Below, piece after piece: positions 3,251-60,502 of a DNA stretch of 64,000 nucleotides; position 1 is the stretch's first letter, and every line of letters begins with the position of its first letter. The position numbers and the translations under genes are program-made. Source of the DNA: Rhytidiadelphus loreus. Lineage: Eukaryota; Streptophyta; Bryopsida; Hypnales; Hylocomiaceae. Location of the stretch: positions 48,793,025 through 48,857,024 of the forward strand of contig OX344763.1 in the NCBI GenBank assembly GCA_947034895.1. The letters are read 5' to 3'. Under the pieces are notes generated by a model. The model searched no databases and was not told where the DNA came from. It saw nothing but the letters and a program-made list of their open reading frames with translations.

Positions 3251-4203
3251 GATCGAGCTTATGCATGACATAGTCTTTGAATACATGTTTAATAAACTAT
3301 CTTTGACAACAATACTCATATAATAATTGTGAAGGTTGTGATAGTAATTGATTCTTCATTGATTGTGTTGTTTAGCTCGACTCAAGCTAAACTTTGATTA
3401 ATTAGATTTTTACGATTAAGGATTATGACATTTGCTACATTCTTGTTCATAATCTTTTCTACATTATGATGTCTTGATCTTGAAAGGATGAATGTTTGCG
3501 TTCGAGATTGTAAAGGTCTTCCACATTGTTTGTGTATCATGAAGTGTGTCACTCTATACAACAATGAGGGCATATTTGTTGAAAAAAGTGCTTGCCACAA
3601 TATGAATGCAGACCTCGTGCTTGGGGCCATCGGTTCTCTTGGAGACACACGTAGCAGTCCACATTTTGAAGATGCATTACGAAGTAAACATACTGCATGA
3701 GTAGGTGTATTCACTTGTAGCTTGGCCTATTAAACTAGTCCATTGCCGTGGAGCAAGCCTGCACGACTATAATGCCCGAGACAATTTCAACCGTCTCCAA
3801 GCTAGTCTTTTGAACCCACGGTCTTCAACATTGGCAAGGCTATATACAAGTATCATCCAAAATCCACCTTGCAAAATTGGCATCAAGGCAAAGGAACTCC
3901 TCTCGTAGGAATCAATTAACTTGGTGTCTAGCAAAATCTACTACAACAAGAATTGTGTGCAGTTGTTTCCTAGAGAAAAGATTTGAGCCTTCCATGAATG
4001 CATATACCAACAATCTACATTTAAGTTCAGAGCTCACATGAACATAGATGTTCATAAATGAATCCATTGTGACTTGCATGGGAAAAAGATGGTAGCGGTA
4101 GAAGAAATAAGTGTGTGCATGCAAACATGGATGTTTATTGCTAGGGGCACACATGCAACTTTCTACTATTACCAAATGAGAAGTTATGGACCATGGTAAT
4201 TCG
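3251..4203. other. Left flank of the hAT element, no gene
   Basis: Mixed-composition DNA with short open frames on both strands (for example 3705-3908 and 3912-4175) that overlap and resemble no family I know. The last eight bases before the element form the left copy of its target-site duplication. Confidence 0.4.
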
Positions 4204-4211
4204 GGAATGTT
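4204..4211. repeat. Left target-site duplication GGAATGTT
   Basis: Eight bases immediately outside the left terminus, identical to 21358-21365. Confidence 0.8.
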
Positions 4212-4545
4212 CAGGGTTACCAGGACGTCCGTCTGGACGTCCAGCGTCCGCGTCCGAACCCCCCCGGACGTCCAGTTTTTCTGTTTTTTACCTAGGGTAA
4301 ATTAAAAGTTACCTTGCCCGGGGCTTCCGACGGCCTGGCCGATCGGACGGCCACTCCCGATCCGACGGCCTGATCGGACGGCCAGGTTCGATCCGACGGC
4401 CTAATCGAACGGTCCGATCGGGTATGCTCTTCCGACGGCCTGATCCGACGGCCAGGTCCGATCTGACGGCCTTATCAGACAAGTTGATTGGATATCCTCT
4501 TCCGACGGTCTGATCGGATGGCCACATCCAATCCGACGGCCTGGT
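4212..4545 (+). repeat. hAT left terminal and subterminal motif array
   Basis: After the CAGGGTT terminus come three GGACGTCC palindromes. From about 4325 to 4540 there is an array of (C/G)GACGGCC units, with nine exact GACGGCC copies plus variants, mostly set in GATC(C/G)GACGGCC. The GC content contrasts sharply with the AT-rich surroundings. hAT transposases are known to bind short subterminal repeats, so this is the expected place for binding sites. That it is bound is inference. Confidence 0.7.
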
Positions 4546-5216
4546 TTAATCAAGCCCTTTTCCTGACAAAAGTATAATGTATGAGTGAAAAAAATTTAGA
4601 AATAAAAAATTTTAATTCTGAAAAATCTTTGTGTTGCCCGGTCTTCCAAGTTTTGAGTTACATGGGCATAACTTTTGTAGAGGGGTACCGATTGAGAAAA
4701 AAATTATATTTTCACAAAGGTTTTCCATTTTTCTATCTTAAAAAAAAATTTAAGAAAATCAGGAGACAAATTCAGCCCATAGGTATCAACCTGAAATCCA
4801 TTTGTCAATGGAAGGGACGCTTTGTCCTTTAGGGGTTCAAATGAGCTATGAAAAGAAATAGAACCCATTGTTGAACTTCGGTATACAATAAGTTTTGTTT
4901 AAGGTCCCTATTGACAGTCATGGAAATTATTCTAACAAAAAGAAAAAGAAAAAGGTACAAGGTCTAAATACTAAATAGCGTCGAAATGCACGATGGTACT
5001 ATTTTTTTAGGGTTTTATAGAAATGCCATTTTTTTAATTAACAAGGATTTAGGCCCAAAAACTAACCCATTCTTGTACTTTAGGGAGTATTGAAAGAATC
5101 CCCATTTGAACTCATTAAAGTAATTTGACTTCAAAAAAATTAAAATTCTTAAAAATTCTGTATCATTCCCAACTGTAGAATTCAACACATTTTTATTCTA
5201 ACCATTTCTTTCTTAA

Positions 5217-5769
5217 CCCTTTAGGGCCTAGCATGCCAATTTTAGTTCTTTTAAATTGAATTTTGGAAATTGGAACACTTTCTTGACCTTAATTGCTCTT
5301 GAGGTGTGAATAAGATGTGAGGGCACGGTTATTCCGCTTCCAATGAGACATTGGCCATCAAATTTGGAGCAATGATGATTTGTCTATGACAATTTGAAGT
5401 TGGGAATTTTAGAGTTTCAAAATGCACTGTGGAATATGTTTCTCTATTCAATTTATTTGTATATAACTAAAGAGAGCATGCCAACTTCACCATAATGTTC
5501 AATATAATGAACTCTATTTTTAATAAAAAAAAATCTTGGTAAAGTGACCTTTTTTGTAATTACTATGATTTTTCAAAGACATAAACTTTAAAAAATCATA
5601 TAAATTTCATTTTTTTCCCCCAAAATAATTAAAAATCATATTAGATAGAAGATATGAATGCTTATTTGTGGAAAAATAATAATTTAAATTAAATTACAAA
5701 ATTTTAATATGCAAATTTGATTTTTGAAGAATTCAAGAAGTTGCTTGGGGCTCCTTAGGCCCTAAAGGG
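5217..5769 (+). mobile_element. TTAA-flanked miniature element (piggyBac-like), copy 1
   Basis: The element starts CCCTTTAGGGCCTA and ends with the inverted complement of the same 14 bases. It is bounded by TTAA on both sides (5213-5216 and 5770-5773). It is AT-rich inside with no coding capacity, so it is non-autonomous. A TTAA target plus termini beginning CCC is the signature of the piggyBac superfamily, which is not commonly described in plants. It aligns end to end with 8605-9154 in the same orientation at roughly 80% identity by eye. The superfamily assignment rests only on termini and target. Confidence 0.65.
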
Positions 5770-6678
5770 TTAAGCCCTAAAGGACCGAGCCATTTTCTGG
5801 GTCCAAAATCACTGAAAACTGCCATTCCAGCTGCGATCATTCACGATGTTGTGAAAATGTTTTCTTTGAAAATGTAACCGTAAGATCTTGAAGTGAACTT
5901 GTATGAGAGGGTGTGGTAAACTTTTTGGGAGTTTTCACCGTACGGATAAAGAGATATTTGCATTCAAAGTCTTTTTTTTTTTTTTTTTTCACTATGCCCC
6001 AGAATTTCAGATGCCTTTGACCGCCTCATGCTCAATTTTTTTGCACTACACACCATAAAATTAAAAAAAATTCTTGTAGGTATTGAAGTTGGGCATATGC
6101 ATACCAATTTTCAAAGAAATCCAACACACCTAACACCTCCAAAAAAATTTTGCAATGCCATTATGCCACAATGTCCCAAATATTGACAATGCACTAAGTC
6201 ATCTTTGAATCAGTTTTCCCACCACATACTTTGAGATTTTGAAAATCCGAATGATGGATACAAAGGCATACTTATATTTGACAAGCAAAAGAATTTTGTT
6301 TGGGAAAATTTCAAAATCTGAGATTCCTATGACCTTCTGAAGTTTGAAGCTGCTTGGACGATGGGGTTTATAAAGCTTAAAATGAAAACAATCTCCACAC
6401 ACCCTTGCTAATTGCCACCTCAACATTCAACAACAACAAGTAGTGCCCTTTTCATTCAAGTCATATGTATCTTTCATAGTTTCATGTGACAAAAAATCAT
6501 AAGCATTACTTACTCAAATACACCGAACTTTCAAAATGTATAATTATCATATTCCACATATATGGTCATACATCGACATTGCATAATTAGGCACTATATA
6601 GTGTGCACGCGTACATCCTCATTCTATATTTACTACATACCTCTATAGTTCTATGCTACTATAAAGTACGTTGAACTA

Positions 6679-8175
6679 CTAATATGAATGGCGGAAGTGC
6701 TCATCCGGCACAGGCCAATTGCATCGACCGGAAAAGAAATTGATGATGTGAGACAAACCGCCACGGTAATTCGAACCTTCACTGCAAGGCCGCTCCATGT
6801 ATGAGTGAAATATAAGGGCCAAAACGTGGTGACTCAACTTCGTCAGTTCAGCTGATTCCCGATGCAATTTGTTGTATTCTTCAGACATGCAATCCTTATT
6901 GATGCGTTGAGCGAGTTTACAAACCGCATATTCTTTTGATGCACGTGATAGATTTGGAATGATTGACCCATCTACATCTCTTTTGTGCACATATGCAATC
7001 TTCAGGTCCACCCACCACCTCTTTCTCAAAGCCTCCTCCATGTCACTCGCACATGTAAACATGTACAAAGACTTCATTGGTTCAGAAGCTACGGTAGTCA
7101 TGCCCCAATCGCAGACTCCAATGTACACGCGTGACTCGTCTTCAGGAAAGTGAAACATTATGTTGTCTGGAGAGATGTCATTGTGAAGATGTCCAGAAAT
7201 GTGCACCGCATTCATGATGTGCAATAATGCCCATGCGAGTTGCGTGCGCTTCTTCCTAAATCGTCCGAGACGGTAAGCTTCAATCAACTCTACCTCTGTT
7301 GGCCTCGAATAGTGCAACCGAATGGCAATGTTGTCTGGATAATCATTATCCAAGTGCATCATGTGCTGTAGTATTCCGCCATTCCACCAATATGAATACC
7401 CTTCATTTGCTGTTCCATGAACTGCAGCAAACCGTATAATTCCAGGATGTGGAATCCGCACTGCCATTGACTCGTTCTGGTGTTCCAATCTCGCAAGATG
7501 AGGCTGTGTGCGGTGTTGATTGGATAGCTTTGCTGCAAACTCCCAAAATGTAGCTATCCCTGGACACCCTTCAATTTGAACCCTACGAATTGTTGCATAT
7601 CCACCCTTCATGGTTTTTTGGTCTTGAGCGATTACTCGTGCTGTGTCAGGAAGCGCTATGAGGTGTTGTCTGCCCCGATCCAGTTCAGCCACTCCATCAG
7701 TGCTATTCCACCAACCCAAAGATCCTCGTCTATTACGGCTCTTTGCAAACGGCTTGCATCGTGCAACAAACAAGTCAACTTTCAGAATGACTTCACGAAA
7801 ATCCTCATCATTTTCCCGATATTGAGAGCCATACCTTGCTAGCACCATTGATGCATTCCACAATGCATCGTGGACCCTATTCTCCAAGAATTTTGGAAAG
7901 CCATTCTTCTCCGTCTCGTGGTGCCATTCTGGAGTGCTAAGCGCATTCATCATCAGTTGCCACATGTCCGCCTTGAATTTTTGCGAGCACTCCTCGTTGT
8001 ACCTAACGTATTTGTTGTGTAGTGACATCGTGGTTTCCGACTCATAGAAATTGACGATCAACTTGATCAAAAATCTCTTGCATGCATCAGAGGGAATGTC
8101 CCTACTTGCCTCATTGTGTGAACCTCCTTCATGCTCCATTTGTTTCCTCTTTGCAGCCTTCTTTGTTCGTGGCAT
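6679..8175 (-). CDS. Protein-kinase-like protein carried inside the hAT element
   Basis: An uninterrupted 498-codon frame. I start it at the ATG at 8175, which opens with a basic stretch (MPRTKKAAKRKQ) that could be a nuclear-localisation signal. The frame stays open upstream into the GC-rich array but loses gene-like character. Residues 30-180 are a helical, unrecognised N-terminal region. The kinase fold follows: glycine-rich loop GGYATIRRV (191-199), likely ATP-binding Lys216 in FAAK, a candidate helix-C Glu near 235, then IPHPGIIRF. The catalytic loop HNDISPDN (331-338) has Asp333 and Asn338, and the metal-binding motif is CDWG (Asp356), with Trp instead of the usual Phe of DFG. Key catalytic residues are present, so activity is plausible. 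The C-terminal 140 residues are not a family I recognise. A GGACGG motif array lies about 205 bp upstream of the start. Substrate unknown. Phosphorylation of the transposase or host chromatin proteins would be speculation. Confidence 0.7.
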   Translation of the reverse strand: MPRTKKAAKRKQMEHEGGSHNEASRDIPSDACKRFLIKLIVNFYESETTMSLHNKYVRYNEECSQKFKADMWQLMMNALSTPEWHHETEKNGFPKFLENRVHDALWNASMVLARYGSQYRENDEDFREVILKVDLFVARCKPFAKSRNRRGSLGWWNSTDGVAELDRGRQHLIALPDTARVIAQDQKTMKGGYATIRRVQIEGCPGIATFWEFAAKLSNQHRTQPHLARLEHQNESMAVRIPHPGIIRFAAVHGTANEGYSYWWNGGILQHMMHLDNDYPDNIAIRLHYSRPTEVELIEAYRLGRFRKKRTQLAWALLHIMNAVHISGHLHNDISPDNIMFHFPEDESRVYIGVCDWGMTTVASEPMKSLYMFTCASDMEEALRKRWWVDLKIAYVHKRDVDGSIIPNLSRASKEYAVCKLAQRINKDCMSEEYNKLHRESAELTKLSHHVLALIFHSYMERPCSEGSNYRGGLSHIINFFSGRCNWPVPDEHFRHSY

Positions 8176-8379
8176 CGTGATGAACTTCTTGTACGAATGA
8201 ATATTCGCAAAATGAAATGATAATTTCAAGTTCAAGTGAAACTTGAACCAAAACTGAAAAAAATGGCAATAAGGGGCCCTCAAAATCGCACTCTTGCTTT
8301 CCCAAGAAGACGAACCAATGGGGGCATGAACCACCAAGCTCTCCGCTTCACTCTTGCAATATGCAAGGGGGAAAACAAA

Positions 8380-8590
8380 AGTGAGGATCGGACGGGCCCG
8401 TCCGACTCTCTTATACCTTTCCGACGCCCTTTTCCGACGCACGGTCCGCGTCGGAAATCCGACGCCTACGACGCGGTCAACAGATCGGGCGGCCGATCGA
8501 TCCGACGGCCCCCGCGAGGCGGACGGGCTGCCATGCGATAGATCGGACGGTGCGGCAGGACGACAGATCAGACGGCTCCGATAAATGGAA
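8380..8590. promoter_or_regulatory. GC-rich GGACGG motif array upstream of the kinase-like gene
   Basis: This short GC-rich block contains repeated CGGACGG, TCCGACGCC and GATC(C/G)GACGG motifs in both orientations, the same vocabulary as the element ends. It begins about 205 bp upstream of the kinase-like start codon. A promoter or transposase-binding role is inferred from position and motif sharing only. Confidence 0.45.
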
Positions 8591-8604
8591 TTTTCACCCC
8601 TTAA

Positions 8605-9154
8605 CCCTTTAGGGCCGAGCATGCCAAATTTGGTCGTTTTAAACTGAATTTTGGAAATTAAAACACTTTTCTAACCTCATTTGACTGTGAGGTGTAAATG
8701 AGATGTGAGGGCACGGGAATTTCGCTTCCAATGAGCCATTGGCCATCAAATTTGGAGCAATAATGAGTTATCTATGGCAATTTGAAGTTGGGATTTCTAA
8801 AGTTTCAAAATACAATGTGGGACATGTTTCTCTATCAAATTTATTTGTATATAACGAAAGGGAGCATGAAAACTTCACCATAATGTTCATTATAATTTTT
8901 CCTATTTTCTATAAAAATTTCATCGTAAAGTGAGCTCTTTTGTAATTACTACGATTTTTCAAAGATAGAAACTCTAGAAAATCTTATAAATTTCATTTTT
9001 TTCCCAAAAAATATTAAAAATTCAGATCTGATAGAAGACATGAATGGTTATTTGTGAAAAATAATAAATTAAATTAAATGATAAAATTTTGATATGAAAA
9101 TTTGATTCCAAAAGAATTCAAGAGTTTGCTTGGGGCTCTTTAGGCCCTAAAGGG
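8605..9154 (+). mobile_element. TTAA-flanked miniature element (piggyBac-like), copy 2
   Basis: Same family and orientation as 5217-5769. It begins CCCTTTAGGGCC, ends GGCCCTAAAGGG, and is flanked by TTAA at 8601-8604 and 9155-9158. Internal landmarks are shared in order, including TTGGCCATCAAATTTGGAGC, the TTTGTATATAAC block and TTGCTTGGGGCTC. It has no open frame of note. It sits directly beyond the GC-rich array upstream of the kinase-like gene, so the two copies bracket that gene as direct repeats. Confidence 0.65.
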
Positions 9155-9158
9155 TTAA

Positions 9159-10676
9159 TCCTTTACTTCCTAAGAAGCCCATTTTCGGCCTCACATTTTT
9201 GCAACAATTTCGAAGAGTTTATATGGAGATTTTTATTTATTTTAATAAAAATATTTATTTTAAACCAATGCATCCAATATTCTTTTTTTTTTTGCTTGAA
9301 ACAAATGGACAATTTGCATGCAATATTCTTCACTCAAGCTAATGATATAATAAAAAATTTCATTTAGATTATACTTTCCACGATACGAACATTCAAAGTT
9401 TGTAACTTAAAATCATGAATTAGCATTCCAAGTGGAAGAAAAGAATTTCTTTCAAGATAATCCTATGATAGCCCACAAAACAAGAAAATCCATAACTTTC
9501 GCATCATGAATCCAATTGGAATGAATCAAAGCATCCCATTTAGAAAAATCCAATATAATATACAAGAAAAAAAAAAATCATTTCTAATTCAAATTTCTAG
9601 TGGATTTTTTGGGTTGCTCGGTCTCACCCATTTTGAAGTTAATAGGTTATGGTGCAAAAACATTTGCACACGGACACCAACAAAAACATAATATATATAT
9701 TCCCTAAAAACTCATCAATTTATCTATCTTATGAAAAAATTCCTGAAAATTTCAACAAAAAATGAGACCACCCAAAATTCATTTTGGCCCCCTTTACTTG
9801 ACAAAATCACGAAATTCGTTAAAGGAGGAGGTCCACAAAACAAAATTACACCATGTAAGGGACGCAACTAAATTTCAAAGAATTGAAACAACTTCAAGTA
9901 TTTTTCAAGGAAATTTCATTGATATATTGAGAAAATTGACTTGTAAATCAAGTCCTTTCCTATTATGTACATGAAGCTTCATGGAATTAGTTATGAAATT
10001 TTGAATGAAATTTTGGAAATAGAAAAAATAGGAATGCATTTACATTAGTTAAATTTAAGCACTCTTTCTTTATGTTTTTCATAGGAAGAAGAGGAAGATT
10101 ACCAAATATTGAAACTGTGACTCCAAACATTTTTGTCCATCACAATTCACAAGGCTCAAGGTGTGTTGGACATAGGTGTACTAGTAAGTGACAATTTACT
10201 TTATGTAGGAGGGTCTACAAAATATAACATGCTACCTTATGCTTTTTTAAAAATAAAAATTAGGTAACAATAAGTTCGAAGCACTTCAATATTTTCCATG
10301 GACATCTAGGATAAACAATTAAACATGCCATCTACGATGGTGCATTGACATTTTCACATTCGAATGACAAAATGGTAAAAGCTGGGCCATTGCTATACTT
10401 AGCTTCCAAAACACCATGGCTTGATTCATTGCATAGCAATGGCATTCAATAATACCATGAACATGAGAAATCTATCATTCTAATAATATATTTCAATACA
10501 TCGCAATTGTAGCGGTTTTGCATTGTACGTGACGACTGACGACCACTCATTGACACCATTACACTATGCTTGCTACATTCTATATTGCATCATTGTATGG
10601 AAAACAACTAAATCTAAATTTAGAGCCCATATTGTAAGACAGACAATACAATATTGTATTAGTGTTTGATTCGGCT
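9159..10676. other. AT-rich spacer inside the hAT element
   Basis: No coding sequence supported. Short frames such as 9762-9974 show no family signature. This spacer separates the direct-repeat miniature element from the 3' end of the zinc-finger-like gene. Confidence 0.4.
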
Positions 10677-11681
10677 TCATTCGGAATCTGAATCCGTGTC
10701 ATCTCTCTGACTTGGGCCTATAGGACCACCACCATAAACACCGAGATATGGTCCTCCGCCATAGTAGTCGGGAACATATCCGCTTTGCCCACCTCCTTGT
10801 CCATAATTTGCAGAGGAAGGACCTCCAAAAGTTGGAGGAGGAATTGAATCACCGTGGAGTGATCCTCTTTGAGTTGAACCGCCATAATAAGAGCCTCCAA
10901 CGTTTTGAGAGCCATGTTGGGGGTCATGGCCATAGTGTGAACCATAGGACCCATGTGGTGGGTCATATGCACCACGGTCACGTTGGTAGAATCCACCATA
11001 CCCATCTTGTCGACCACGGTCCTCTACGCTTCTACGCATCGCTTCTTGCATTTGTTGTTCGTATTCAATGTCTTCTCGATCTTTTTTACGCTTGTGCTCC
11101 TCTCCCAATGTCACTGGTGCTGGAGCTTCACCCTCATCACCGTCACTCGACCATTCATCTTCTCCATGTGGCACCACAACTGCAAGAAATCCAAACTGCC
11201 CTCGATTGGACCACTTTGGTTGGCAATCACTTGCAGCAGTCCAGCTAGTATAAATCATTGCATCATTCCAATTCAGACTATCCACATGTTTTCCATAAAT
11301 GGTACGCCAATCCACATCTTTGTGGAGTACAATCTCTGCCCAAACCATAGCCATGTTAGAATAGTTCATTATATTAGGTTTGAAGTCACGTAAACCCGCT
11401 GAACGCGTTACTTCTTCGTAACGGTGAAGAAAGTGTCGGCTCGTACATGTGGACATTTGTCCTTCCCATCGACGAACTTGGCCTTCAGCACGTTCTCGTG
11501 ACCACATTTTGGAGAGGTGAGTCATCTTGACGTACTTCTTGCATGTGGTGCAGTCCCAAACTTTCTTTGGCTCTTCTTCCCATCCATCTTCAGCTACGCA
11601 ATTAGGGTTTTCCTAGTCAACCCAATTCATATCTTGAGATTTCCCTTTCTTACTCTTACTTGATGGTTTAGGGCGAGACAT
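10677..11681 (-). CDS. Zinc-finger-like protein related to the hAT transposase N-terminus
   Basis: The first ATG (11681) is followed by a basic, serine-rich start and then an in-frame TAG at 11613-11615. After it the frame is open to the stop at 10677, with the next ATG at 11525. Between the TAG and 11525 the frame encodes WDCTTCKKYVKM, a CxxC pair; HFLH follows about 30 residues later, giving a BED-like CxxC...HxxH layout. The segment KMTHLSKMWSRE and the later NYSNMAMVWAEIVLHKDVDW match, with substitutions, KMYHIDKLWPRD and NYSTASMVYAKLILGRKVDW in the transposase N-terminal piece at 15131-15987. The C-terminal third is Gly/Tyr/Ser-rich low complexity ending in DDTDSDSE, with no catalytic hAT domain. 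It may be a DNA-binding accessory or antagonist of the transposase. The TAG could be a true lesion, a very short intron, or a sign that translation starts at 11525. Confidence 0.55.
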
Positions 11682-11964
11682 GATAACCTTGATTACAATG
11701 AAGATAATTGATGTCCGAATTTTCCCAAAAAATTGCACCAAGTGCACCAAGTGCTTCTCACTTCAAAATTCAAATGCAATGGTTTTCTAATTCACAGTTC
11801 CTCGCATCCAAGAAATTATTCAAACCACATCACTTAAAACCATCAAGTATCCAAGCACAACCGTTCACACACCAAACCGAAAGGGGCGCGCAGAGCCACA
11901 GATTCACATCGGGCACTAGAAAACCCACTTCGGGAGGGCAACGGCTGTGGAAAAATGAGGCGTC

Positions 11965-12290
11965 GGAAACGCTATTTATGGCTTCCGACGGCGCTTTAGG
12001 GTCCGTCCGAATCGGACGGCCTGTTTTCTGACGCCCCCATCGTGCGGCCCGAAACTGTCGCACGATGGACCGCACGGTCACCGAGAAAGTGCGGATGAAC
12101 AGCTCGGACGGCGCGTCGGAAGCTTGGACAAGGCGTCGGAAGCTCGGACGGGGCGTCGGCAGATCGGACGGGGCGTCGAAAAGTCGGACGGGGCGTTGGT
12201 TTCGGCTTTCGGGACCGTCGGAAGGTCGGACGGGGCGTCGGAAGGGCGGAGGGGCCGTCCGGCGAGGAGAATTTTGGGAAACAAGGGAAG
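11965..12290. promoter_or_regulatory. GC-rich motif array upstream of the zinc-finger-like gene
   Basis: Contains roughly six tandem units of about 20 bp with the core GTCGGAAGCTCGGACGGGGC, plus ATCGGACGGCC, the same motif family as the element ends. It begins about 285 bp upstream of the ATG at 11681. A regulatory role is inferred from position. Open frames across it on both strands are by-products of high GC content. Confidence 0.45.
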
Positions 12291-12389
12291 TTTTGCCCCT
12301 TTCGAAATTGCAGGCTTTGCCCTGCAGCAGAGGCAATGAAGGGGGCAATTCAGCGTACCCTTTTTTGGCCCCCCCTGTGAGCACGTAAA

Positions 12390-14470
12390 AAATTTTGGAA
12401 CTGAACCATAGGATCTAAAACGTTACTTGTAACACACTAAACCCTTGTATAAAATGTAGAAGGAAAATAACAAGAAGAAAGAAGTATGGAATTTTTGAAC
12501 TCCCAAATTCATGAGGGTTTTGCTATGCCCTTGAAAAATTAGGATCCCATTGCTTCGAAATGCGTAATTTTTTTAATAAATCATGTACATCCTCTAATTC
12601 GCTTTCTTGAAATAATTGTAGAAATTCATGAACTACGGTTATCTCGGGGGGGTCATTTAGAGTGTCCATTAGAAACCAAGTGCGAACAAAACTTTGGACC
12701 CCCTATATATTTTTTGAATTTTAAATAAAACAAAATTAAAAAAATATGAATAGATTTTCCTACTTTAAAAGTTTATGTTTTGAATTATTGATATTTTTAT
12801 TTGTTAATAATAATTAGTTACAAATTTTTGAAGTAAAAAGATACACTGTAGAACTGAAAAATAGCTTTTACACCCCTCTATTATATAAGAAAAAATTGTC
12901 TAAAAAATGAACAAAAAATTCCTAAAAATAACTCATTATTGAAAGCTCATTTTGAATTGAATATTGACTCAATGGTCATCTAAATGTGTCCTTTATAATT
13001 ATTTCAATTGAAAAACATGCCATTTTAGTTCATTTTCAAGTTTCAACCTCTTCTAGAAATCATTTCATATTTTATTTGAGTTGGAAATTTTGGCAATAGA
13101 AAGCTATAGTCATTATTAAACAATGTTCAAAATTTTAGGTTGAAATTATAGTTTATTAGAAACCACTTGTTCACATGTGATTTGTTATAGTAGAACTAAG
13201 TGCACCCCCCAAGACGGTTATGGCCTTATGGGGCACTTACAACTGCATTTTTTGAGTAAAGAAAGAGAGATTCCATAATTGTTGACCATGTAAAAGTAGA
13301 AAACTACCTAGAATAATTTATTTGAAGAAATATTTATTTTTTGCTCAAATGTGCCCACTCTCTTTCAGTTCCACAAAAACCTGTAGTACTTCTTTTCTAG
13401 TTAATAGTTATCAATCTCACTAGCAATTGCATGCAGAAATGAACTCTAAAGATTTATAGATTTATTTTGGCAACACTCAAGAACATGCTCTAATAGGCTA
13501 GAACTTTGAATAAAGAGATTATCCATAATTCTATAATATAATATATTTTTGTGCAATACTGCAAGGTATGAAAGCTTAACATTTCGTCATACATATAATT
13601 AATGAAACCTAAATTAATAGATTAATGAATTCAAGTTTAGAAAAATTGGTGAAGGCCTTAAAGTTGGCCCCTCTCTCCCCCTTCTCAATGAAATGAAAAA
13701 ATATATCAATATAGGGTATATGGTTCAAATTTTCCATATTACAATGTCATGAATTCATGAATGAGTAGTACATTTTACAAGTAAATAAAAAACTTTCAAA
13801 TGATCATATGTGATGTTCTCCTTCTATTAATTCTTGTACATGAGTGATCATCATATTCAATTGTCAATTTTGTGGGACAACCTTTCACTTCTGCAATTTC
13901 CACGGTGCCATGTAATAATTCATACCCGAAAACATAGAAATGAATAACTAATTAGTCGACAAGGTTCACGTGTATAGTACATTTAAATTATCACATGTAG
14001 ACTACAAGTTCAATGGATCAATTACACAATGGTTTCTACATTCAAATTACATTTCAACCAACATTTCCACATTGACTTTTTAAATCATATCTTAAAATCA
14101 TAGAAGAAGTCATGTACTTTGTGGATCCAAAAAAATAAATGTCTTCAAATTGCAATGTAATTATGTATCCATGTAACCATGTATAGAGGGCAAGCCAAAA
14201 TTGCTACTAGTGGATATTGGGATGGTGGGAATACTCGGTGAAATCGTAAAAGTGATGCCGCATGCTGCACCAATTTTTTGTTGAGCACGTGAATATTTTA
14301 TATGGAAATTTAATAATTTGTAGGGTTTAGGGTTTAGGGTTTAGGGTCTAGGGTTTAGCATTAAAAACAGTCTCACAATGTAGGGAAGAAAATGAACAAT
14401 AAGCTTTCACACATTGGATGCTTTCTACATTACATTGATCATTCTTTACAGTGATTTAACTATTTCAAGG
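12390..14470. other. AT-rich spacer inside the hAT element
   Basis: Two kb of AT-rich DNA with no supportable gene, lying between the divergent zinc-finger-like gene and the transposase. Its only landmark is the TTTAGGG-like tract at 14321-14358. Confidence 0.45.
14321..14358 (+). repeat. Interstitial TTTAGGG-type repeat tract
   Basis: About five units of the Arabidopsis-type plant telomere heptamer, one altered to TCTAGGG. It is short and flanked by unrelated AT-rich DNA, so it is not a chromosome end. Confidence 0.8.
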
Positions 14471-14574
14471 ATCCGTTGTTTGAACAGTGCGTATACAGCT
14501 GGCGGATGACAATTCAGCAGGTCCGTGCAGAGGAGACGATGGCCTGATCGGAGACATGAAGACCTAAAATCCAT

Positions 14575-14925
14575 CTGACGGCCTGATTTGACGGCCACGA
14601 CCTGTTCGGTCCATCTAATCGGGCGCAGGCGACTCCGAAACTTGGTCTTCCGATGGCCCGATCTGACGGCCCCGGCGTCTTCGATCCGACGGCAGCGTTC
14701 GATCCGACGGCCTCATCGGCCGGTGACGTCGGATCCGACGGCCTCTTCCGACGCCCTCATCGGACGGCCTCTTCCGACGGCCTGATTGGACGGCGACGGC
14801 CTGTTCGGTCCGCCCAATTGGACGACCAGGACCGATCCGACAGCCCAAAGTCGGACGGATCGCGGTCCGGAACCGAACCGGTATTAGGGTTGGTTTCGGA
14901 TGGCTATATGATCGGACGGGCCCTT
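14575..14925. promoter_or_regulatory. GC-rich GACGGCC array upstream of the transposase N-terminal piece
   Basis: At least eight GACGGCC copies, mostly preceded by GATC(C/T/G) and closely matching the left-end array. The array ends about 206 bp before the ATG at 15131, the same distance seen at the kinase-like gene. It is probably the promoter region of the transposase and possibly an autoregulatory binding site. That role is inference. Confidence 0.5.
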
Positions 14926-15130
14926 CATTTCTTTTCACTTCTTCTCTCCAAACTTGCCAAGTCAGATGTGTTGCTGTTGCCTCTGGCGCTAGTTGCTCTT
15001 ACTTGGTGGAGAGAAGGGGTCCAACATATTTTATTACGGTGTGACTTTGGTAGATTTAAATTACCTACACGTATATTTCAATTGACCGAATTTTTTACTT
15101 TGAATTGCTCTTCAATTCAAAGTACCAAGC

Positions 15131-15987
15131 ATGGCCGTGGAAGGTGATGGAGGGGCTATTGGGACGACTTCAACACAACCTCCACTGAAGAAAATTAAAA
15201 CAAGGGGGGCCGGACATGCGTTGCAGTATGACATTTTAGATGATCCGAACATCAAAGCGGAGCCTGACTGGGAGAAAGTGGAGGCCGAATATTGGAGCTC
15301 TAAAATGTGCAAACATTTGTCAAAATGTACCACATTGACAAGTTGTGGCCTCGGGATTTCCACGCAGCCCACACAAGATATTTCAATTGTAAGCCGTGGA
15401 CTTGCAAGGATAGTCATTTTGTACATCAATCAGACGAGGTGTGGAAGGTCCTCTTCGGCAAGAAGGCAAGGAGTAAAAGATACATAAATTACAGCACGGC
15501 ATCTATGGTGTATGCAAAACTCATATTGGGTCGGAAGGTGGATTGGAGCACGTTTCCAACGACATCGCAATTGCCGCTTCAACTTCCGAAAAATCAAAAG
15601 GATATTCCCGATTTATACAACCACGGGGCACAAACGGCTGAATCTAAAATAGTATTCAAAAATACTAGAATGCCTACAATGAAGGTTTCACAGGGTGTAG
15701 GCAACGCAATACAGTTGGACCCCACACAACTAGGAGCGGAGGCCACCAATGCCTCTTCGGGAGGTGTATTTCGGAAGGTCAATTTCAAGGATCCGGAGAC
15801 TTGTTTACCCACCTCGGTTCATGTACCAATCACGGGTGAGCAAAGCATTGCTCCAAACAAGCACGACCTTGTGAAAGAAGTTGCCCCCTCTTCCTCGTCG
15901 CGAGAAGACATGGATGAAAACAAAGTTGCAAGAGCAAATGCTACAATTGAATGGCTTATAGAAAATTCAATACTACTATCAATATAA
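15131..15987 (+). pseudogene. hAT transposase, N-terminal DNA-binding part (frameshifted)
   Basis: The first frame from the ATG at 15131 opens with KKIKTRG-type basic sequence and runs to EYWSSKMC. Homology with the zinc-finger-like protein at 10677-11681 then continues in the next frame (from about 15311: TFVKMYHIDKLW, HFVH, NYSTASMVYAKLILGRKVDW). The two agree in order and spacing, so a 1-base deletion or equivalent near 15311-15316 is likely. The first Cys of the expected CxxC pair is Ser here. The piece ends DENKVARANATIEWLIENSI, which resembles the segment preceding the DUF659 domain in plant hAT transposases. I therefore read this as the N-terminal half of the transposase that continues at about 18152, separated by 2.2 kb that may be an intron, an insertion or both. 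Confidence 0.55.
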
Positions 15988-17080
15988 ATTAACAAAACCG
16001 AAGACATAAGTACAAATAGAAATAGAAATGTCTACCACAAACTTATAACCAAAGAATTGAAGAAATACTATAAAATAATGCATTTACAAATGATTTTATA
16101 GAAAATTCCGTAATTTAAAACCTTGAAGAATACAATATTGATTGGATTAAAAGTCAAAAACTATATAGTTTGACTTTTAGTAATATATATAATTAACCAA
16201 GCATGCTAGATCTTCCACAATATAATTGCAATAAAATCTCTTGTCTAATTAAATAATGATCAATTCAATCTTCTTAAGTAAAAATAAGGAACCCAAAAGT
16301 ATTGAAGGGATCATATGAGGGGCCATCATGTATTCATGTTCGACAAAGGTCGGTTATGTTTTAAACTATTCAAGCACTAATATTTTTCATATGAGATATA
16401 TAGTTGACGATTTACAATTTATAGGTATAAGGGTGTAGGAAAACAACTTCAATAATATTTTTGTTGTATAAATGCAATATTTAATCTTGAACAACATTAA
16501 ATTACATTAAAATATTTAAAGCATTTTTTGTAGCATCTTGTAATACAATTATAAAATAATATAATTGCTTGTACTATGTATACTTTGATGTTTGAAACTA
16601 TTAATGCATTTTACAACAAAACTTAAAGAAAAAAAACTTCAAATTATAATTGTATGTTTGATATTTGTAAATTGGCACATCATAATTGATGTAGAAAATA
16701 CCAAGAACATGTTGACAACATATATGAATAAGCTTATGAACTATGCAAAAATCCATATGTAGTACATCATGATAATCACATTTTAAGGGAATTAGAAGTC
16801 AAACATATTTTGCACATTAAAGCAATGTGTTTGTTCACTAATGTAAAATTCAAGGTTTAGGGTCTAGGGTCTAGGATTTAGGGTTTAAGATTTAGGGTTT
16901 AGGGTATAACAATTATAGTGCATATTTCATTGTGTGAAAGTTTAACTTGGATTATCCTTCCTTTGTATACATAAATGCTATATACGATGTTTGTACTTTG
17001 TAGTATTAAATAGAAGTTTTGAAAAGCGAATCTGTACTTTTCAAAATTCATTAATACAATACAATTGGATGGAGGGTACA
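15988..17080. other. AT-rich DNA inside the split transposase
   Basis: No coding sequence supported. It contains the second TTTAGGG-like tract. The 60 or so residues expected between the two transposase halves in related proteins were not found here, so they may be lost or too diverged to see. Confidence 0.4.
16853..16906 (+). repeat. Degenerate TTTAGGG-type repeat tract
   Basis: About seven units mixing TTTAGGG, TCTAGGG and TTTAAGA, an older version of the tract at 14321-14358. Confidence 0.7.
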
Positions 17081-17087
17081 ATAGGCG

Positions 17088-17582
17088 GACGAGTGGTTAG
17101 ATGGCGAACTGGGGGTCGGAGGAGAGGAGTAGAAGACAACGTTTTTTTGGCCATTATCAAAAACAGCCTTAGAAAATGGTCCTTAACTATTTGCTGGAAA
17201 GTTGAAACTTAAAACGGATTCTTGGAGGTGGAACTTGGCTTCATTTCCAACGTTTTTGTAGTTCAAAGTTTTTTGAAAAAAGACATTTTACTATGCGTAA
17301 AAGAGGTCTAAAAATCATGTTTTAAGACATTTTACTGCGGTCGGCAGAAGGGCGGACGGTGGGTCGGAGGAGCGGACGGCAATTTTTTGGTCATTTTCAA
17401 AATCAGCTTTAGAAAATTGTTTATAACTTTTTTTTGGAAGCTTGAAACTTGAAATGGATTTCTGGAGGTAAAACTTGGCTTCATTTCCAACATTTTTGTA
17501 GTTCAAAGTTTTGTGAAAAAAGACAATTTACTATACGTAAAAGTGATCTGAAATTCATGTTTTATGTCTTTTTACTGCGGTC
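17088..17582 (+). repeat. Tandem duplication, two units of about 245 bp
   Basis: Unit 1 (about 17088-17341) and unit 2 (about 17342-17582) share the same order of landmarks: a short GGCGGACG-type GC patch, TCAAAA.CAGC.TTAGAAAA, GGAGGT..AACTTGGCTTC, TTTTTGTAGTTCAAAGTTTT and TTTACTGCGGTC. Each unit carries its own GGACGG patch. Confidence 0.75.
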
Positions 17583-17657
17583 GAACGGAGGACTAAGAAG
17601 ACTGCAATCTTTGGAGATGTCCCATAGTTGGAGTTTTTGTCCAAATTGAATGTATTA

Positions 17658-17700
17658 TATACCATTGGAAAGCTATAAATGATGTCTTTCCAATGGTATA
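17658..17700. repeat. Perfect 15-bp inverted repeat
   Basis: TATACCATTGGAAAG at 17658-17672 pairs with its exact complement at 17686-17700 across a 13-bp loop. It is too short to assign to a family. Confidence 0.75.
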
Positions 17701-17779
17701 TTATGGTGCACATGAATGTGGACAGAACGTCTGATGGTTAGGCGTCTGACTAGATGAGCGAACGGTATCAATTCATCTG

Positions 17780-18150
17780 TTTTGCCGTCCGCTCGTCCGT
17801 CCGCACCGCTGCAAGGCCGACCTCGTGGTTGTCCACATGTCCGGTCGACCGCGTGGCCGTCCGCCCTGTCGATTTCATGGCCGTCCGCCTTGTCGACTTC
17901 ATGGCCGTCCGCTTGGCCGTCCGCCCTGTCAACTTCATGGCCGTCCGCGTTGTCGACTACATGGCCGTCCGCTTGGCCGTCCGCCCTGTCGACTTAATGG
18001 CCGTCCGCCACTCCGCCCAGCTGACCGCATGAGCGTTAGTCCGTCGGAAATCCCGGTCGGCCCATCTGCTCTCCGCTATCCGTCGGAAGCTTTGGTCGGC
18101 TTGTCTGTGATCTACCCGTCCGCCCGTCCAGCGGTCGGACGGTAGTCACC
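17780..18150. repeat. GC-rich GGCCGTCCG array just upstream of the transposase C-terminal part
   Basis: At least eight GGCCGTCCG copies, the reverse complement of CGGACGGCC, lie in a minisatellite with units such as ATGGCCGTCCGCCCTGTCGA (about 17841-18010). Further CGGTCGG and CGTCGGAA motifs run up to 18150. It abuts the first recognisable DUF659 residues, so it may be an insertion that replaced coding sequence or intronic DNA. Open frames across it are repeat artefacts. Confidence 0.6.
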
Positions 18151-18151
18151 G

Positions 18152-20800
18152 CCAGGTATTTCAAAAGACGTCATGGGGTCAGCGTCCGCGAACTCTGGAC
18201 GCCCTGTCAACCCTGTGATCAATGCCATGCTTGTATCTTCAGTGGGTGAGCAATTCCTTGGATCGGTGGATACTAGTGGGGTGGAAAAGACAGCACAATA
18301 TTTGGCCACAATTTTAGAAAAATTCATAGAGCAGGTGGGTCCTACGAATGTGGTGCAAGTGAATGCAGACAATGCTCCAGTGCATCCGGCAGCATGGAAT
18401 TTGGTAACGAACAAATATCCACACATTTTTTTTCAAGGATGCGTGGTGTAAGTATTGAATTTGTTGCTCAAAGATTGGGGAAAGGAGAAATGGATTGAAG
18501 AGTCGGTAATGAGAGCCCAAACCGTAGTAAATTTCTTCAAGAAAAGACACATGCCACTTGTTATATTTCGGAAGTATGAGACAAAGTATAGTTTGTTGAA
18601 GCCGGTGGAAACAAGGGTTCCCTTTGTGTTTATCATGATTGATCGTTTGTTGGAAGTCAAAAGAGCATTGCAACAAAGTGTGGTGGATCTACAGTGGGTG
18701 GCATATGTGAATACACTCAACGACAATGGCAAAGCCAAATCTCGCACGAAGTCTCGTGATGTGAAGAGGTTCATTCTAGAGGAGCATTATTGGGACCGGT
18801 GGACAAATTTGCGAGAATTGGTGGCCCCCGTTGTATATGGTCTACGTGATTTGAATGCAAAGACGCCATGCATGGGTAAGGTGTTGCATATTATGAGGAA
18901 TTTAGAGAAACATGTCCTTAGCCTAGAAGGGCATCCTTTTTGTTTGGCAACAAATCTCGCCGAACCATTGGAGCGATCCTTTTTCAAACGCCGTGAAATG
19001 GGGGAGACAAATTTATATTATGTAGGAGCTTTTTTGAATCCATACCTTCTGCATGATAAGGATCTAGCCGACGACCAAGATGCAATGGACGCATGCAAGC
19101 GTGTTCTAATGAAAATTTGCAAACAAGAAGAGTACGCCTCGGTGGTAAAAGAATTTGTAGCCTTCCGCCATAGGGAACCTCCGTTTCACAACATGTTGAA
19201 TCCGGATGAGCAACAATTGTCGGCGCATGCTTGGTGGGATTTTGAAGGTGCATGTGGGAATCTCATTGCTCCAATAGCCAAGCGAATTTTGGCACAACCG
19301 GTATCCTCGTCTTCATGTGAACGAAATTGGAGTAGTTATTCTTTTGTTCACAACAAATCTCGGAACAAGTTGACAACGCAAAGGGCGGCAGACTTGGTGT
19401 ATGTGTACACCAATTCCAAGGTCTTGGCAGCATCAAAGGAAAAGGATGAGAAGAAGTGGTACGATGACAACGTGGATTCGGAAGATTCAGAGGGGTTTAT
19501 CTCGGAAGACGAGGAGGATGGTGGGTCAGTTGGGCCTCTATTGGATGACGAAGATGCCATGAATTACGACGGGCACAATTTTGATGATGAAATGTTCGAT
19601 AGTCCAAGTCGGCCCAATGAAGATCTTCGAGCCAATGATCGAGACATCTATGACTTTCCATTGGATGAGGATAATGATGGGTATGATGAAGATGTACCTT
19701 CCATAGCTAGATTTGTGGATGGAAGTGGGTTCATGAGTAGCGAAAAAGTTCTATCGGAAAAAGAAGACGCTTATGTAGAGGCCAATGAGAGAACGATTCC
19801 CAATGATGGGACTCAAAGAATGGATGAAGATCTTCTTCCACTTGAGTCTCCGTTTAGAGGAGTGTTGCGAGCGGAAGAAAATGATAAACACATCGGCAAG
19901 GGAGGACATGAGCCTTGGGAGGTGAATGTCAAAATGAACGTTGGCAACACGAGTGTTGAGTCAACCATTGTATTGGCAAGTGCGAATAGTGGTCACCCAA
20001 GTATTCCAATCCCTAAGGCAAATGAAGCGGAGAAGAATGTTGATCTATGTGTGGTGGGGTTTAGAAGTCCAATTTCGTGCATCAATGGAGAAGCCAAGAA
20101 GGAACTCATGCAAGATTTTGAAGTACTACCATCTAGCATCCCTCCACGTGCACAATTGAAAACCCCTAGTCAAATTTCGGATGGCGTTAGAAGCTTAGGA
20201 CTTGGAAAACGGATTGCAAATATTTCAAAAGAAAGGCGGCCTAGTCAAGGTAATTTATCATCCATGGACGATGACAAGGATGAGACATTGGCTTCAATGT
20301 TCATTCGGCATTCTCGTAATGCACCACCACGACGGCCCCCAACAATGTCAGTGCCTAAACCACAATCTTCAATCTCACCGAAGATAATCATTCATGGAGG
20401 CAGTGGAGGGCCCTCAACAATAAAATTAGAGGGCGGGGGATCACCTGGAGCCAATAAGAAGAGAGTTATGCAACCTTCTGCAATATCCCCGTTGAAAAAA
20501 ATAAGAGCCATTGGAAACCCTCTTGATGCACGTCCACATGTTTCAAAGAAGAAAATGAAAAGTGTTGTTGGCATTAAGGAACAAAATGGGAAATCCTTAT
20601 TAAGAGTAAAAGAAGAACTCAAAAAGGACAAACGAAGTAGAAGCCTTTCATTCACGCAAGTACAAGAGGGAAGAACGACATGTCTAGGCTCTTCATCAGA
20701 TGATATGGAAGACACATCCGACGACGAAGACGCAAGATTGGGAAATGGGTGTGAGAGTAGTGGGGCAGAGTTGAAAGGAGATTTTGATTACAATCCTTAG
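18152..20800 (+). pseudogene. hAT transposase, catalytic and dimerisation part (in-frame stop)
   Basis: From about 18173 the frame shows a DUF659-type core: NPVINAMLVSS, SVDTSGV, then NVVQVNADNAPVH, where the Asp matches the second catalytic Asp of hAT enzymes, and KYPHIFFQGC. A TAA at 18449-18451 falls where family members carry the His of the CAAHC-like motif. The same frame then resumes without loss (LNLLLKDWGK...) to the stop at 20798-20800. The hAT dimerisation domain lies at about 19205-19430, with AWWDFEGACGN, the SSSCERNWSSYSF motif containing the catalytic Glu, NKLTTQRAADLVYVYTN. The last 450 residues are acidic and then Lys/Ser-rich. The expected first Asp (usually in an SDGW motif) is not visible, because its position abuts the GC-rich array. 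With that loss, the stop and the upstream frameshift, this copy is probably not active. Confidence 0.8.
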
Positions 20801-21159
20801 AAATAGAAAGGACATAGGCTTAAATTTTCATGTGCTCATATTACATAAAGCACAGATTGTCGTACTGACAATTGATTGTTAGAGACTTTGATTGTAATAC
20901 TCCTAAACTTATTGATGGTGGTAATACCATTATTTTTGAAGGGGGCACTTAACCAAAGATGATTTCAATCTAAAATATCAATTGATTGTGTCATTTGTAT
21001 GTTGCTTTTCTACAATGAAGCATGATATATTGCAAGATGATGAAAAAAATTAAAAAATTAGGCTTCATACTTGTGGTAATTGAAATGCTTTTGAAAGGCT
21101 AGAGGATCATGATGATATGATTGTTAATCTTGTTTCAACCAGGGTTGCAATTCAAGAGG

Positions 21160-21357
21160 ACAGCTGCGACTGCGTCGGAATTCGAACGGCCAAGGCAGCG
21201 TCGGAATTCCGACGCCGGAATTTACCCCGAGGTAAATCGGACGGATGGCTCCGTTTTACCCAGCGTCCCCGCGTCCACCACGTCTGGACGTCCTCGCGTC
21301 CGGACGTCCGCTTTTTGGACGCGATTTTGGGCTGGACGCTCCAATTCGTCAACCCTG
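21160..21357. repeat. hAT right subterminal array and terminus
   Basis: GC-rich end with GCGTCGGAATTC, TCGGACGG, two GGACGTCC palindromes (21286 and 21302) and the terminal AACCCTG. It shares motif vocabulary with the left end, but beyond the first seven bases the two termini are not long perfect inverted repeats. Confidence 0.7.
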
Positions 21358-21365
21358 GGAATGTT
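21358..21365. repeat. Right target-site duplication GGAATGTT
   Basis: Eight bases immediately outside the right terminus, identical to 4204-4211. Confidence 0.8.
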
Positions 21366-22639
21366 GAAGCCTAGGCAGCACACCAAACAAGTAGTTGCTA
21401 TATTGAAGTACATCCTTGACAAAGAAGCAGATCACATGCCACACAAGACTCAGACTAAAAAGTGAGGGGAGAAGATTGTTTCCATCATTTTGCTATCTAC
21501 TTTTCAGTGGAACGGTCTGATGAAAAAAATCAATGATACCAATGTAACCTTTGGTTTGAAAGAGGTCTTGACTTCAAATTTGAGTAAGATTAGATCTATC
21601 AAGTTTCTAAAGTATGAAGTGAAGAAGCGAAGAGATAATTTTGCTCGTTGTGAAGTATTGGAAGAACTTGTGTACAATGCAAACATTATTGGAGAGTGTT
21701 GAAGGCGTTACAAGCATTTAGTGTACTAATGGCATGATGTGAAGGACGCTTTGCAAGAACCACTTAGTGCCTTTTTGTTTTGAAAGATAGTTTTTGGTCG
21801 ACAACTACTGTTTAAACGATTCCACCATATCAATTAGGAGAAGATGGCAAGGATCATGAAGAGTTTGGGGAAGATGACGCCTATGTTGAACCTTTGCGGA
21901 GTTGTCCGCAACCATCCTTCACAGTGGATTGTTATCTCTTTGAAGGGTTTTTTTTTGCAATTCAATCTATAAATGGTGACACCTACCTAATTTGCATTGC
22001 AACGACCTTATCTAATCCAAATTGTAACCTAAAAAATCCAAATTGTATGCTAATTCAATATTTCCATTCTTCCTCAAGGAGTTTAGATGTTTAAGACTTT
22101 TACAATGGATGGGACATCAAAATAGGTCTACGCTGGAAAATTGATGGAATTGAACCACCCCTTTGGAAGGAAACAAATGCTATCATGAGAGCATGGAAGT
22201 CTCAAATCCTAAAGGACACTCGCCAATGCTTGATCAAGATTCCAGCTAAGTAAATTAAAGTCATCAATAGGAGTCTTGCTTCATATGTTTGATGTGTTTG
22301 AATTATATTTACATATATGTTATAGTTTTAAAACTTCTCATATAGGATATTGAATATTTTTATGTAGTCCATAGTAATGTATTGTATCACTAATGGAATT
22401 TCTGTATTGCAATTGAATAGATGGTGTTGGTTTCATTTGATTTTGTAGATTGCTATTATAAAAATCATTTGGATTGTAGTAATGGTACTACAAGAAAAAT
22501 GCATTTATATATATTATTAATATATTTATTAGTATATTCTTGCGTGTTGTTTCTTTATAATTTACATTATTCTACTTCTTTATTGTTTGTGTAAATTGCA
22601 TTAAAAATTAACATGTGATTGAAAAAAAATGGGTGGTGG
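21366..22639. other. Right flank of the hAT element, no gene
   Basis: AT-rich. A 70-codon frame at 21490-21702 is the longest on the plus strand and resembles no family I can name. It may be a remnant of the sequence into which the element inserted. Confidence 0.4.
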
Positions 22640-51892: not shown

Positions 51893-52930
51893 CAACCTCC
51901 CGCGAGGGGCTGCCTTAAGGTAGCACAGTTCCCTCGCGAGGGGCATCCTTCGGATAGCACAGTTCCCCCGCGAGGGGCTGCCCAAGGTAGCACAGGCCCC
52001 CCGCAAGTGGCTGCCCCGTCACAGCACAGTCACTGTGAGGGGCTGCCCCAAGGCAGTATAGTCTCCTCGCAAGCGGCTGCCCCAGCGAGGGGCTGCCGCA
52101 GGGCAGCACAGTCCCCCCGCGAGGAGCTGCCCTGCGGCAGCACAGTCCCCGTGAGGAGCTGGCCCGTGGTAGCATAGTCCCCCCGCAAGCGGCTGCCCCG
52201 CAGCAGCACAGACCCAGTGAGGGGCTGCCGCGGGGCAGCACAGTCCCCCTGCGAGGAGCTGCCCCGCAGCAGCACAGACACCGTGAGAGGCTGCCGCGGG
52301 GCGGTACAGTCCCCTCTGGAAGAAACTGCCCTGCGACAGCACAGTCCCCCCGCTTGCGAGCCCAGACCCCGCTAGGGGCTGCCCCGCGGCAGCACAGTCT
52401 CGCTGCGAGGAGCTGCCCCGCGACATCACAGACCCCACGAGAGGCTGTTGCGGGGCAGCACAGTCCCCCCGCAAGCAGCTGCTGCGAGGCAACGCAGACC
52501 CCGTGAGGGGCTACTGCGGGGCAGTGTCGTCCCCGCGAGAGGCTGCCCCAAGGCAGCACAGTCCCTCCGCAAGCGGCTGCTGGGGGGCAGCACAGACCAC
52601 GCGAGGGGCTACCGCCGTCCCCGCGAGGCGCTACCGCCGTCCCCGCGAGGCGCTACCGCCGTCCCCGCGAGGCGCTACCGCCGTCCCCGCGAGGCGCTAC
52701 CGCGGGGCAGCACAGACCCTGCGAGTTGCTGCCCAAAGGCAGCACAGCCCCAACCAGGGGTTGCCGCGGGGCAGCCGCTTCCCCGCGAGGGGCTGCCGTG
52801 GGGCAGCGTCGTCCCCAAGAGGCGCTGCGGCGGGGCAGTGCAGTCTGCTTGAGGAGGGCTGCCGCGGGGCAGCCCAACCTCCCTGGGAGGGGCTGTCGCA
52901 AGGCGGCGCAACCTGCTTGGCGAGGGCTGG
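51893..52930. repeat. GC-rich 33-bp minisatellite
   Basis: About thirty imperfect units. Within the best-kept part GGCAGCACAG recurs every 33 bp (for example 52103 and 52136). Each unit combines a GAGGGGCTGCC half with a GGCAGCACAG half, so it carries a dyad that can fold back. Because 33 is a multiple of three, long open frames appear on both strands, including 214 codons on the minus strand. These look like repeat products, not genes. Confidence 0.85.
52608..52700 (+). repeat. Perfect 22-bp tandem repeat inside the minisatellite
   Basis: Four essentially identical copies of CTACCGCCGTCCCCGCGAGG plus CG. The identity suggests recent expansion compared with the surrounding 33-bp units. Confidence 0.85.
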
Positions 52931-52933
52931 TAA

Positions 52934-53119: not shown

Positions 53120-53122
53120 TAA

Positions 53123-59359: not shown

Positions 59360-59490
59360 CTACACAACAATTGATTGAGATAAACATAAGTAGATATTAC
59401 ATTTAATAATAATGAGAGCGGACCTGTCAATCCCATTCGATCACTTTCCAAGCACAAGTGAGGGCACCCCACTCGGGAAAAAATAAAAAA

Positions 59491-60499: not shown

Positions 60500-60502
60500 A
60501 AT

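Follow-up and report, generated by a model that had tools for sequence, protein, structure and literature searches.

Evidence for a giant, four-gene family of hAT transposons in Rhytidiadelphus loreus

Can a plant hAT transposon be a unit of some 17 kb with several genes, and if so, whom do the additional genes serve? The question is raised by a locus in Rhytidiadelphus loreus (assembly GCA_947034895.1, contig OX344763.1, positions 48,793,025 to 48,857,024), where a stretch of 64,000 nt, referred to here as the window and used for all element coordinates, holds a 17.1-kb unit with hAT-type ends. hAT elements such as Ac, Tam3, and Tol2 are usually small and carry one gene. We read the unit, at 4212 to 21357 on the plus strand, as a rearranged copy of a giant hAT family whose full copies carry a protein kinase gene (minus strand), an accessory gene called zf1 (minus), a RING-finger gene (plus), and a transposase gene (plus), with the three accessory genes kept for the element; to this reading as a whole we assign a probability of about 0.9.

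The original prediction placed a 17.1-kb element at 4204 to 21365, bounded by CAGGGTT/AACCCTG ends and flanked by a perfect 8-bp duplication, exactly as we find it. The left terminal inverted repeat, CAGGGTT (4212 to 4218, plus strand), and the right one, AACCCTG (21351 to 21357, minus strand), are flanked by GGAATGTT at 4204 to 4211 and again at 21358 to 21365. Within the window the CAGGGTT-type 7-mer occurs 9 times and the GGAATGTT 8-mer 6 times, which is about chance level, and neither is rare by itself; the ends and the duplication carry weight because their exact abutment recurs in other copies. The length of the inverted repeats, 7 bp, fits the range of 5 to 27 bp that PMC12506042 gives for hAT elements.

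Only the top candidates of each genome search were scored, and all copy counts below are lower bounds. When the two flanks were joined and used as a query, 40 matches were scored of 277 candidates; 37 of them read through the junction at 69 to 78% identity, and the remaining 3 were the two window flanks themselves and a duplicate of the left one. Two read-through loci were fetched; at this position they show a single 8-mer, GGATTGGT and AGATTGGT, respectively, in contrast to the two copies of GGAATGTT in the window; the window insertion and these loci are a filled site and its paralogous empty sites. An empty site with a single GGAATGTT had been proposed as a check, and the single 8-mer was found at both paralogous loci, but not with that sequence. 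The flanks themselves (3912 to 4211 and 21366 to 21665) belong to another repeat family, into which the element was inserted and which occupies at least 37 further places at the same 69 to 78% identity.

Evidence for a family came from searches of the genome that includes the window (407 Mb in 489 contigs, five of them 51 to 94 Mb long). The left 357 bp of the element gave at least 45 matches (40 scored of 303 candidates), with the same start and different flanks in other copies, and the right 306 bp gave at least 40 (40 scored of 294), of which the 39 outside the window stop at query base 297 to 302, the terminal base being 298. Twenty kilobases were then fetched at ten other left ends (ranks 2 to 10 and 13 of the left-end list, named c02 to c10 and c13), whose right ends were at that point unknown. 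The kinase, zf1, and RING blocks are all represented in seven of the ten (c03, c04, c05, c07, c08, c09, and c13), and all of these except c08, within its 20 kb, also align to the right part; c06 and c10 match the left part only, and c02 duplicates the window copy in rearranged form. The duplication is perfect in c03, c04, c09, and c13 and has one mismatch in c07, and none was found at c02, c05, c06, c08, or c10. Thirteen further left/right pairs within about 51 kb were picked by eye from the two lists (one of them the c06 locus), and ten were tested: nine have perfect, mutually different 8-bp duplications, including copy j, which lies in C-rich sequence and starts with CAAGGTT instead of CAGGGTT, and pair g has lost its left end. 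Spacings of 22 to 44 kb between the tested ends probably reflect nested insertions. Altogether the duplication is perfect at 14 of 21 loci (window included), carries one mismatch at 1, and was not found at 6; duplications of 8 bp are what membership in the hAT superfamily calls for, and a second subfamily described below has one as well (1/1). Seven copies read whole with both ends measure 16.7 to 18.7 kb, and six of them, excluding the window copy, are 96.5 to 97.5% identical. The search for copies sharing both ends and gene content that accompanied the prediction has thus turned up second copies, and the two ends belong to one family, with other copies at different sites having both ends and the interior. 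On these grounds the window element is almost certainly a member of a multicopy (dozens), giant (about 17 to 19 kb), four-gene hAT transposon family.

The window copy is nevertheless a mosaic, which could favor regarding the 17.1-kb unit as an accidental composite, two unrelated hAT ends around neighboring repeats that moved once or never. Family homology stops at 15962 and resumes at 18216, and other copies have about 4.3 kb there; the sequence at 15963 to 18215 (plus strand) is instead part of another repeat family, ends with AACCCTG at 18215, and replaces the 3' part of the RING gene and the 5' part of the transposase gene. Its portion at 15963 to 17140 matches a young, abundant repeat at 96 to 99% (40 scored of 528 candidates), and the portion at 17584 to 18215 matches a hAT-like end, mostly at 77 to 89% (40 scored of 401); of the 39 matching places outside the window, about 28 terminate within query bases 631 to 633, position 18215 being base 632. 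Locus c02 (C3:48350200-48370199) also lends itself to the composite interpretation: it shares 257 bp of the window's left flank and 13 kb of the window copy at 99%, and its right end and right flank differ, which looks like duplicative recombination through a shared repeat. Copies at other sites, however, share both ends and the interior at the identity given above and have their own 8-bp duplications, so that for the family an accidental composite is refuted and extremely improbable overall, holding only for the interior at 15963 to 18215 of the window copy. The single-unit hAT element with extra genes that had been predicted is supported by the ends and genes common to other copies.

A simple nested insertion at 15963 to 18215 was considered and rejected, as no left end of the repeat was seen at 15963 and the window copy lacks about 4.3 kb of family sequence; a second element may have lodged in the transposase gene, with a deletion or recombination removing the rest. 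Judged by eye, the orientation of the hAT-like end of this repeat with respect to the interior varies among loci, both directions being found, which is what one would see in a repeat with long inverted ends. A 537-bp piece of the window copy (5233 to 5769), part of a stretch about 84% similar to 8600 to 9161, is present in c02 and missing from nine of the ten fetched copies.

What is left of the four genes in the window copy can be read directly. The kinase gene (6682 to 8175, minus strand) is open over its 498 codons. zf1 (10680 to 11681, minus strand; start codon set by comparison with copy c09) would encode about 334 amino acids and is interrupted by an in-frame stop at 11613 to 11615. The RING gene is reduced to a frameshifted 5' fragment (15131 to 15962, plus strand), compared with about 1,084 codons in other copies. 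The predicted hAT transposase is indeed of hAT type, but only its C-terminal part is present (18216 to 20800, plus strand), comprising a DUF659 remnant, the hAT dimerization domain, and a long C-terminal extension, with a stop at 18449 to 18451; full copies have about 1,110 codons (stop-to-stop frame, 1,116). Without the N-terminal part, which contains the first catalytic Asp, the window copy is, on its reading frames, unable to make a whole transposase.

Across the genome, the kinase query gave at least 87 matches (86 of 1,154 candidates scored), of which 79 belong to the main family (85 to 100% identity), 6 show 67% identity, and 2 are fragments of a single copy. An open kinase frame of at least 495 codons without a stop is found in 43 of the 79 main-family matches (3 of the 43 partial), an open RING frame of at least 1,085 codons in 4 of 53 matches, and an open transposase frame of at least 1,108 codons in 11 of 51 matches (one split). 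Detailed reading found an open kinase in 7 of 11 copies and a whole transposase in none. The genes travel together: within the 50 kb downstream, and on the strand expected, at least 39 of the 79 main-family kinase matches are accompanied by a RING match, compared with a mean of 0.32 and a maximum of 2 in 200 random placements of the RING matches, and at least 38 are accompanied by a transposase match. This comparison used 79 of the 87 kinase matches (omitting the 6 second-subfamily matches and the 2 pieces of one copy), all 53 RING matches, and 51 of 56 transposase matches (5 fragments of split copies were omitted). Among sequences from other sources, transposase P0062 and RING protein P0052 are each on a 17,649-nt contig, P0083 and P0057 each on a 7,321-nt contig, and transposase P0074 and kinase P0033 each on a 27,639-nt contig; we infer from the equal sizes that each pair shares a contig.

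The six kinase matches at 67% identity mark a second subfamily. One of its copies, at C5:839874-854382 (14,509 bp, read in parts), has the ends CAGGGTTGACAGGG... and ...AATTCGTCAACCCTG, a perfect 8-bp duplication (CACAAAGG), and the same four genes, with zf1 on the plus strand to the left of the kinase; its kinase and zf1 are open, as is the part of its transposase that was read, and its RING piece has a stop. Identity to the main subfamily is 67% for the kinase, 62% for the RING protein, and 72% for the transposase. NG86 estimates of nonsynonymous over synonymous divergence (dN/dS) between the subfamilies are 0.230/1.193 = 0.19 for the kinase, 0.253/1.033 = 0.25 for the 3' part of the RING gene, 0.183/0.937 = 0.20 for the transposase, and 0.228/0.692 = 0.33 for zf1, each from one copy per subfamily and, where dS is near or above 1, partly saturated. 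These values suggest that the accessory genes diverged alongside the transposase under comparable constraint, and because the second subfamily has the same four genes, all constrained, we regard the accessory genes as residents rather than fresh cargo. The prediction that the element carries extra genes as cargo accordingly stands insofar as they are carried; they do not appear freshly captured and look like long-term residents.

Besides the single-copy sampling and saturation just mentioned, several observations weigh against this reading. One kinase segment has no defined dS; a within-family test of shared versus private changes (c02 and c10 excluded) was not significant for RING (P = 0.07), kinase (P = 0.27), or zf1 (P = 0.28) and ran in the opposite direction for the transposase, with a nonsynonymous-to-synonymous ratio of 5.0 for shared and 2.1 for private changes. 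None of the copies read in detail keeps all four genes open, and each of the eight that cover the RING gene has it broken. These null results from copy to copy, together with the many broken copies (RING open in only 4 of 53) and stop rates of 1.5 to 2.1 per 1,000 codons that are similar among kinase, RING, and transposase matches, are what one might expect if the extra genes were captured host genes, passengers of no use to the transposon. Passengers, on the other hand, would not readily account for four genes in two subfamilies separated by a dS of about 0.7 to 1.2 with dN/dS of 0.19 to 0.33, the kinase being as low as the transposase, nor for relatives that appear linked in other sources, judged by the equal contig sizes; and no single host-like kinase stands apart among the 86 scored of 1,154 candidates, of which the unscored ones could hide one. 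We consider useless passengers very unlikely and retention of the accessory genes for the element likely.

Two further features of the second subfamily were noted. Aligned transposase codons 480 to 540 have a dN of 0 and the lowest dS among the transposase segments, which suggests segment exchange between subfamilies. The six kinase matches (C5:842575, C5:714788, C2:41167178, C5:9629436, C2:71166649, and C2:49995265) each keep an open frame over 500 codons and score almost alike, and this group is probably younger and less decayed.

As for the proteins, the predicted kinase-like gene was confirmed by invariant kinase residues and a predicted kinase fold. At least 50 relatives were listed, the only plant-named ones being from Ceratodon; one, P0002, is labeled as a Bacilli metagenome-assembled genome and was taken as contamination. 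Residues K216, E235, D333, N338, and D356, which we take to be the kinase Lys, Glu, catalytic Asp-Asn, and metal-binding Asp, are invariant in 30 of 30 aligned sequences (our own and 29 of the 50 relatives), and the loop, HRD, and DFG motifs are atypical (GGYATI, HND, and DWG). All 50 PDB fold matches listed for the structure model (predicted local distance difference test score [pLDDT], 79) are kinases, and a profile search found two MAP kinases at E values of 0.003 to 0.009. Searches of viral_contigs and genome_contigs for kinase relatives gave 20 and 19 pattern matches, respectively, with 0 confirmed. For the RING protein, 9 relatives were obtained, the longest of 1,140 amino acids, and its C3H2C3 ligands (C-x2-C, C-x-H, H-x2-C, C-x2-C) are kept in all eight of the nine aligned sequences that span the site. 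Less favorable to these assignments are the moderate kinase fold matches (TMt, 0.42 to 0.62; root mean square deviation, 7.7 to 12.7), a Pfam score for our own kinase of 22.1 bits, below the curated cutoff of 31.7, and a RING protein that is itself below the Pfam cutoff (relative P0058 is above it) and whose structure model was poor (pLDDT, 39) and left unused. The kinase and RING-H2 ligase activities of the accessory proteins are putative. The zinc-finger-like gene had been thought transposase related and is not: zf1 resembles the N-terminal part of the element's own RING protein (29 to 40% identity to residues 49 to 151; best E value, 8e-20 in a small local database), sharing a domain with it.

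The transposase has at least 45 relatives. DUF659 and hAT dimerization domains were found in the three scanned, and PF05699 is above its cutoff in the window transposase, copy c03, and two relatives scanned. D205, D266, and E585, presumably the DDE catalytic residues, and C290 and H293, presumably the CxxH motif, are invariant in 17 of 17 sequences (our own and 16 of the 45 relatives). An N-terminal BED zinc finger is common, though not universal, in hAT transposases; here the N-terminal Cys/His spacing looks BED-like by eye, and no BED match was obtained at E values up to 0.01 in P0062, P0065, or P0061 (the last without its N terminus). The transposase profile gave 0 matches to PDB sequences at an E value of 0.01.

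The palindromes predicted near both ends are there: GGACGTCC occurs five times in the element, three times in the first 500 bp and twice near the right end, and is absent from the 42 kb of the window beyond 22000. They form part of arrays of CGGACG/CCGACG motifs at the left end (4226 to 4533) and right end (21173 to 21305), and further arrays lie upstream of the kinase gene (8389 to 8544), zf1 (11961 to 12256), and the RING gene (14686 to 14913). Counted on both strands in six copies, the motif clusters in six segments (600 bp at either end and 700 bp upstream of each of the four genes), which hold 51 to 62 of the 58 to 69 motifs per copy in 21 to 24% of the element; in a rotation test, 93 to 128 of 5,000 rotations reach the observed placement, presumably small shifts. 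The arrays bear on a further explanation, that selection on the host maintains the accessory genes for some advantage they give it, such as in defense or development. The constraint on kinase, RING, and zf1 is silent on the beneficiary, and the kinase relative KC19_VG055000 of Ceratodon purpureus represents 126 member sequences, VG being read by us as the V sex chromosome. Yet the genes accompany the transposase in two subfamilies and are multicopy and mostly decaying, and the motif arrays are common to genes and element ends; we hold host benefit to be unlikely.

On our reading, the transposase would cut and paste the element by way of the CAGGGTT ends and the subterminal GGACGTCC/CGGACG arrays, the three accessory proteins would serve the element and not the host, and the motif arrays common to both ends and to the regions before all four genes would make it a self-regulated unit. 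In the least certain step, the zf1/RING pair would bind the arrays and, with the kinase, could counter host silencing or tune transposition through phosphorylation and ubiquitylation of element or host chromatin proteins. The window copy would have lost this capacity when another repeat lodged in its transposase gene and a deletion accompanied it. Antisilencing or regulation through the arrays is a tentative proposal, somewhat less likely than not, and equally speculative is a more specific version in which an element-borne signaling module (kinase plus RING-H2 ligase/zf1, coregulated with the transposase by the arrays) might overrule host silencing or repair control.

Elsewhere in the window, a tandem array of 170-bp units (59486 to 60032; 3.2 copies, 96% matches) and a GC-rich array of 32- to 34-bp units with many variants (51899 to 52926; 70% GC in 52001 to 53000) were observed, along with inverted repeats at 60190 to 60500 (116-nt arms, 91% complementary) and 52933 to 53120 (76-nt arms, 95% complementary) that are possibly small transposons.

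The family resembles Ac, Tam3, and Tol2 in its 8-bp duplications, short CAGGGTT-type ends, transposase with a dimerization domain, and subterminal arrays, and it differs from them in being about four times the usual length and in having three extra constrained genes. By anatomy alone it also resembles VANDAL21 of Arabidopsis, a multigene plant DNA transposon with arrays in its noncoding parts; VANDAL21, however, is a Mutator-like element (MULE) with other accessory proteins, whereas the transposase here is hAT. As described in two reports, VANDAL21 carries VANA, VANB, and VANC, and VANC binds motifs in tandem repeats of the noncoding parts (PMC5735166; PMC10398659). The help that VANC gives to VANDAL elements may be an analogue of the accessory role proposed here, through a different protein. 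ToxhAT, renamed ToxTA, is likewise large, was once called a hAT element, and carries extra genes, but it is fungal, 14 kb, and single copy with a TA duplication, and has been moved from hAT to Tc1/Mariner and is thought to be nonautonomous, according to PMC12506042. The same paper describes Starships as giant fungal elements moved by a tyrosine recombinase (DUF3435); they too are giant eukaryotic DNA elements with extra genes, whereas the transposase here is hAT, and DUF3435 had no match among the element proteins scanned. In line with the original prediction, we recognized no description of a giant plant hAT element combining these genes in a literature judged by titles and abstract openings, with most subscription papers outside it.

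If our reading is correct, hAT elements can become multigene units, with kinase, RING, and zf1 constrained much like the transposase. The family would then provide an example, amenable to testing, of phosphorylation and ubiquitylation encoded by a transposon, and its motif arrays would open the way to a direct binding assay.

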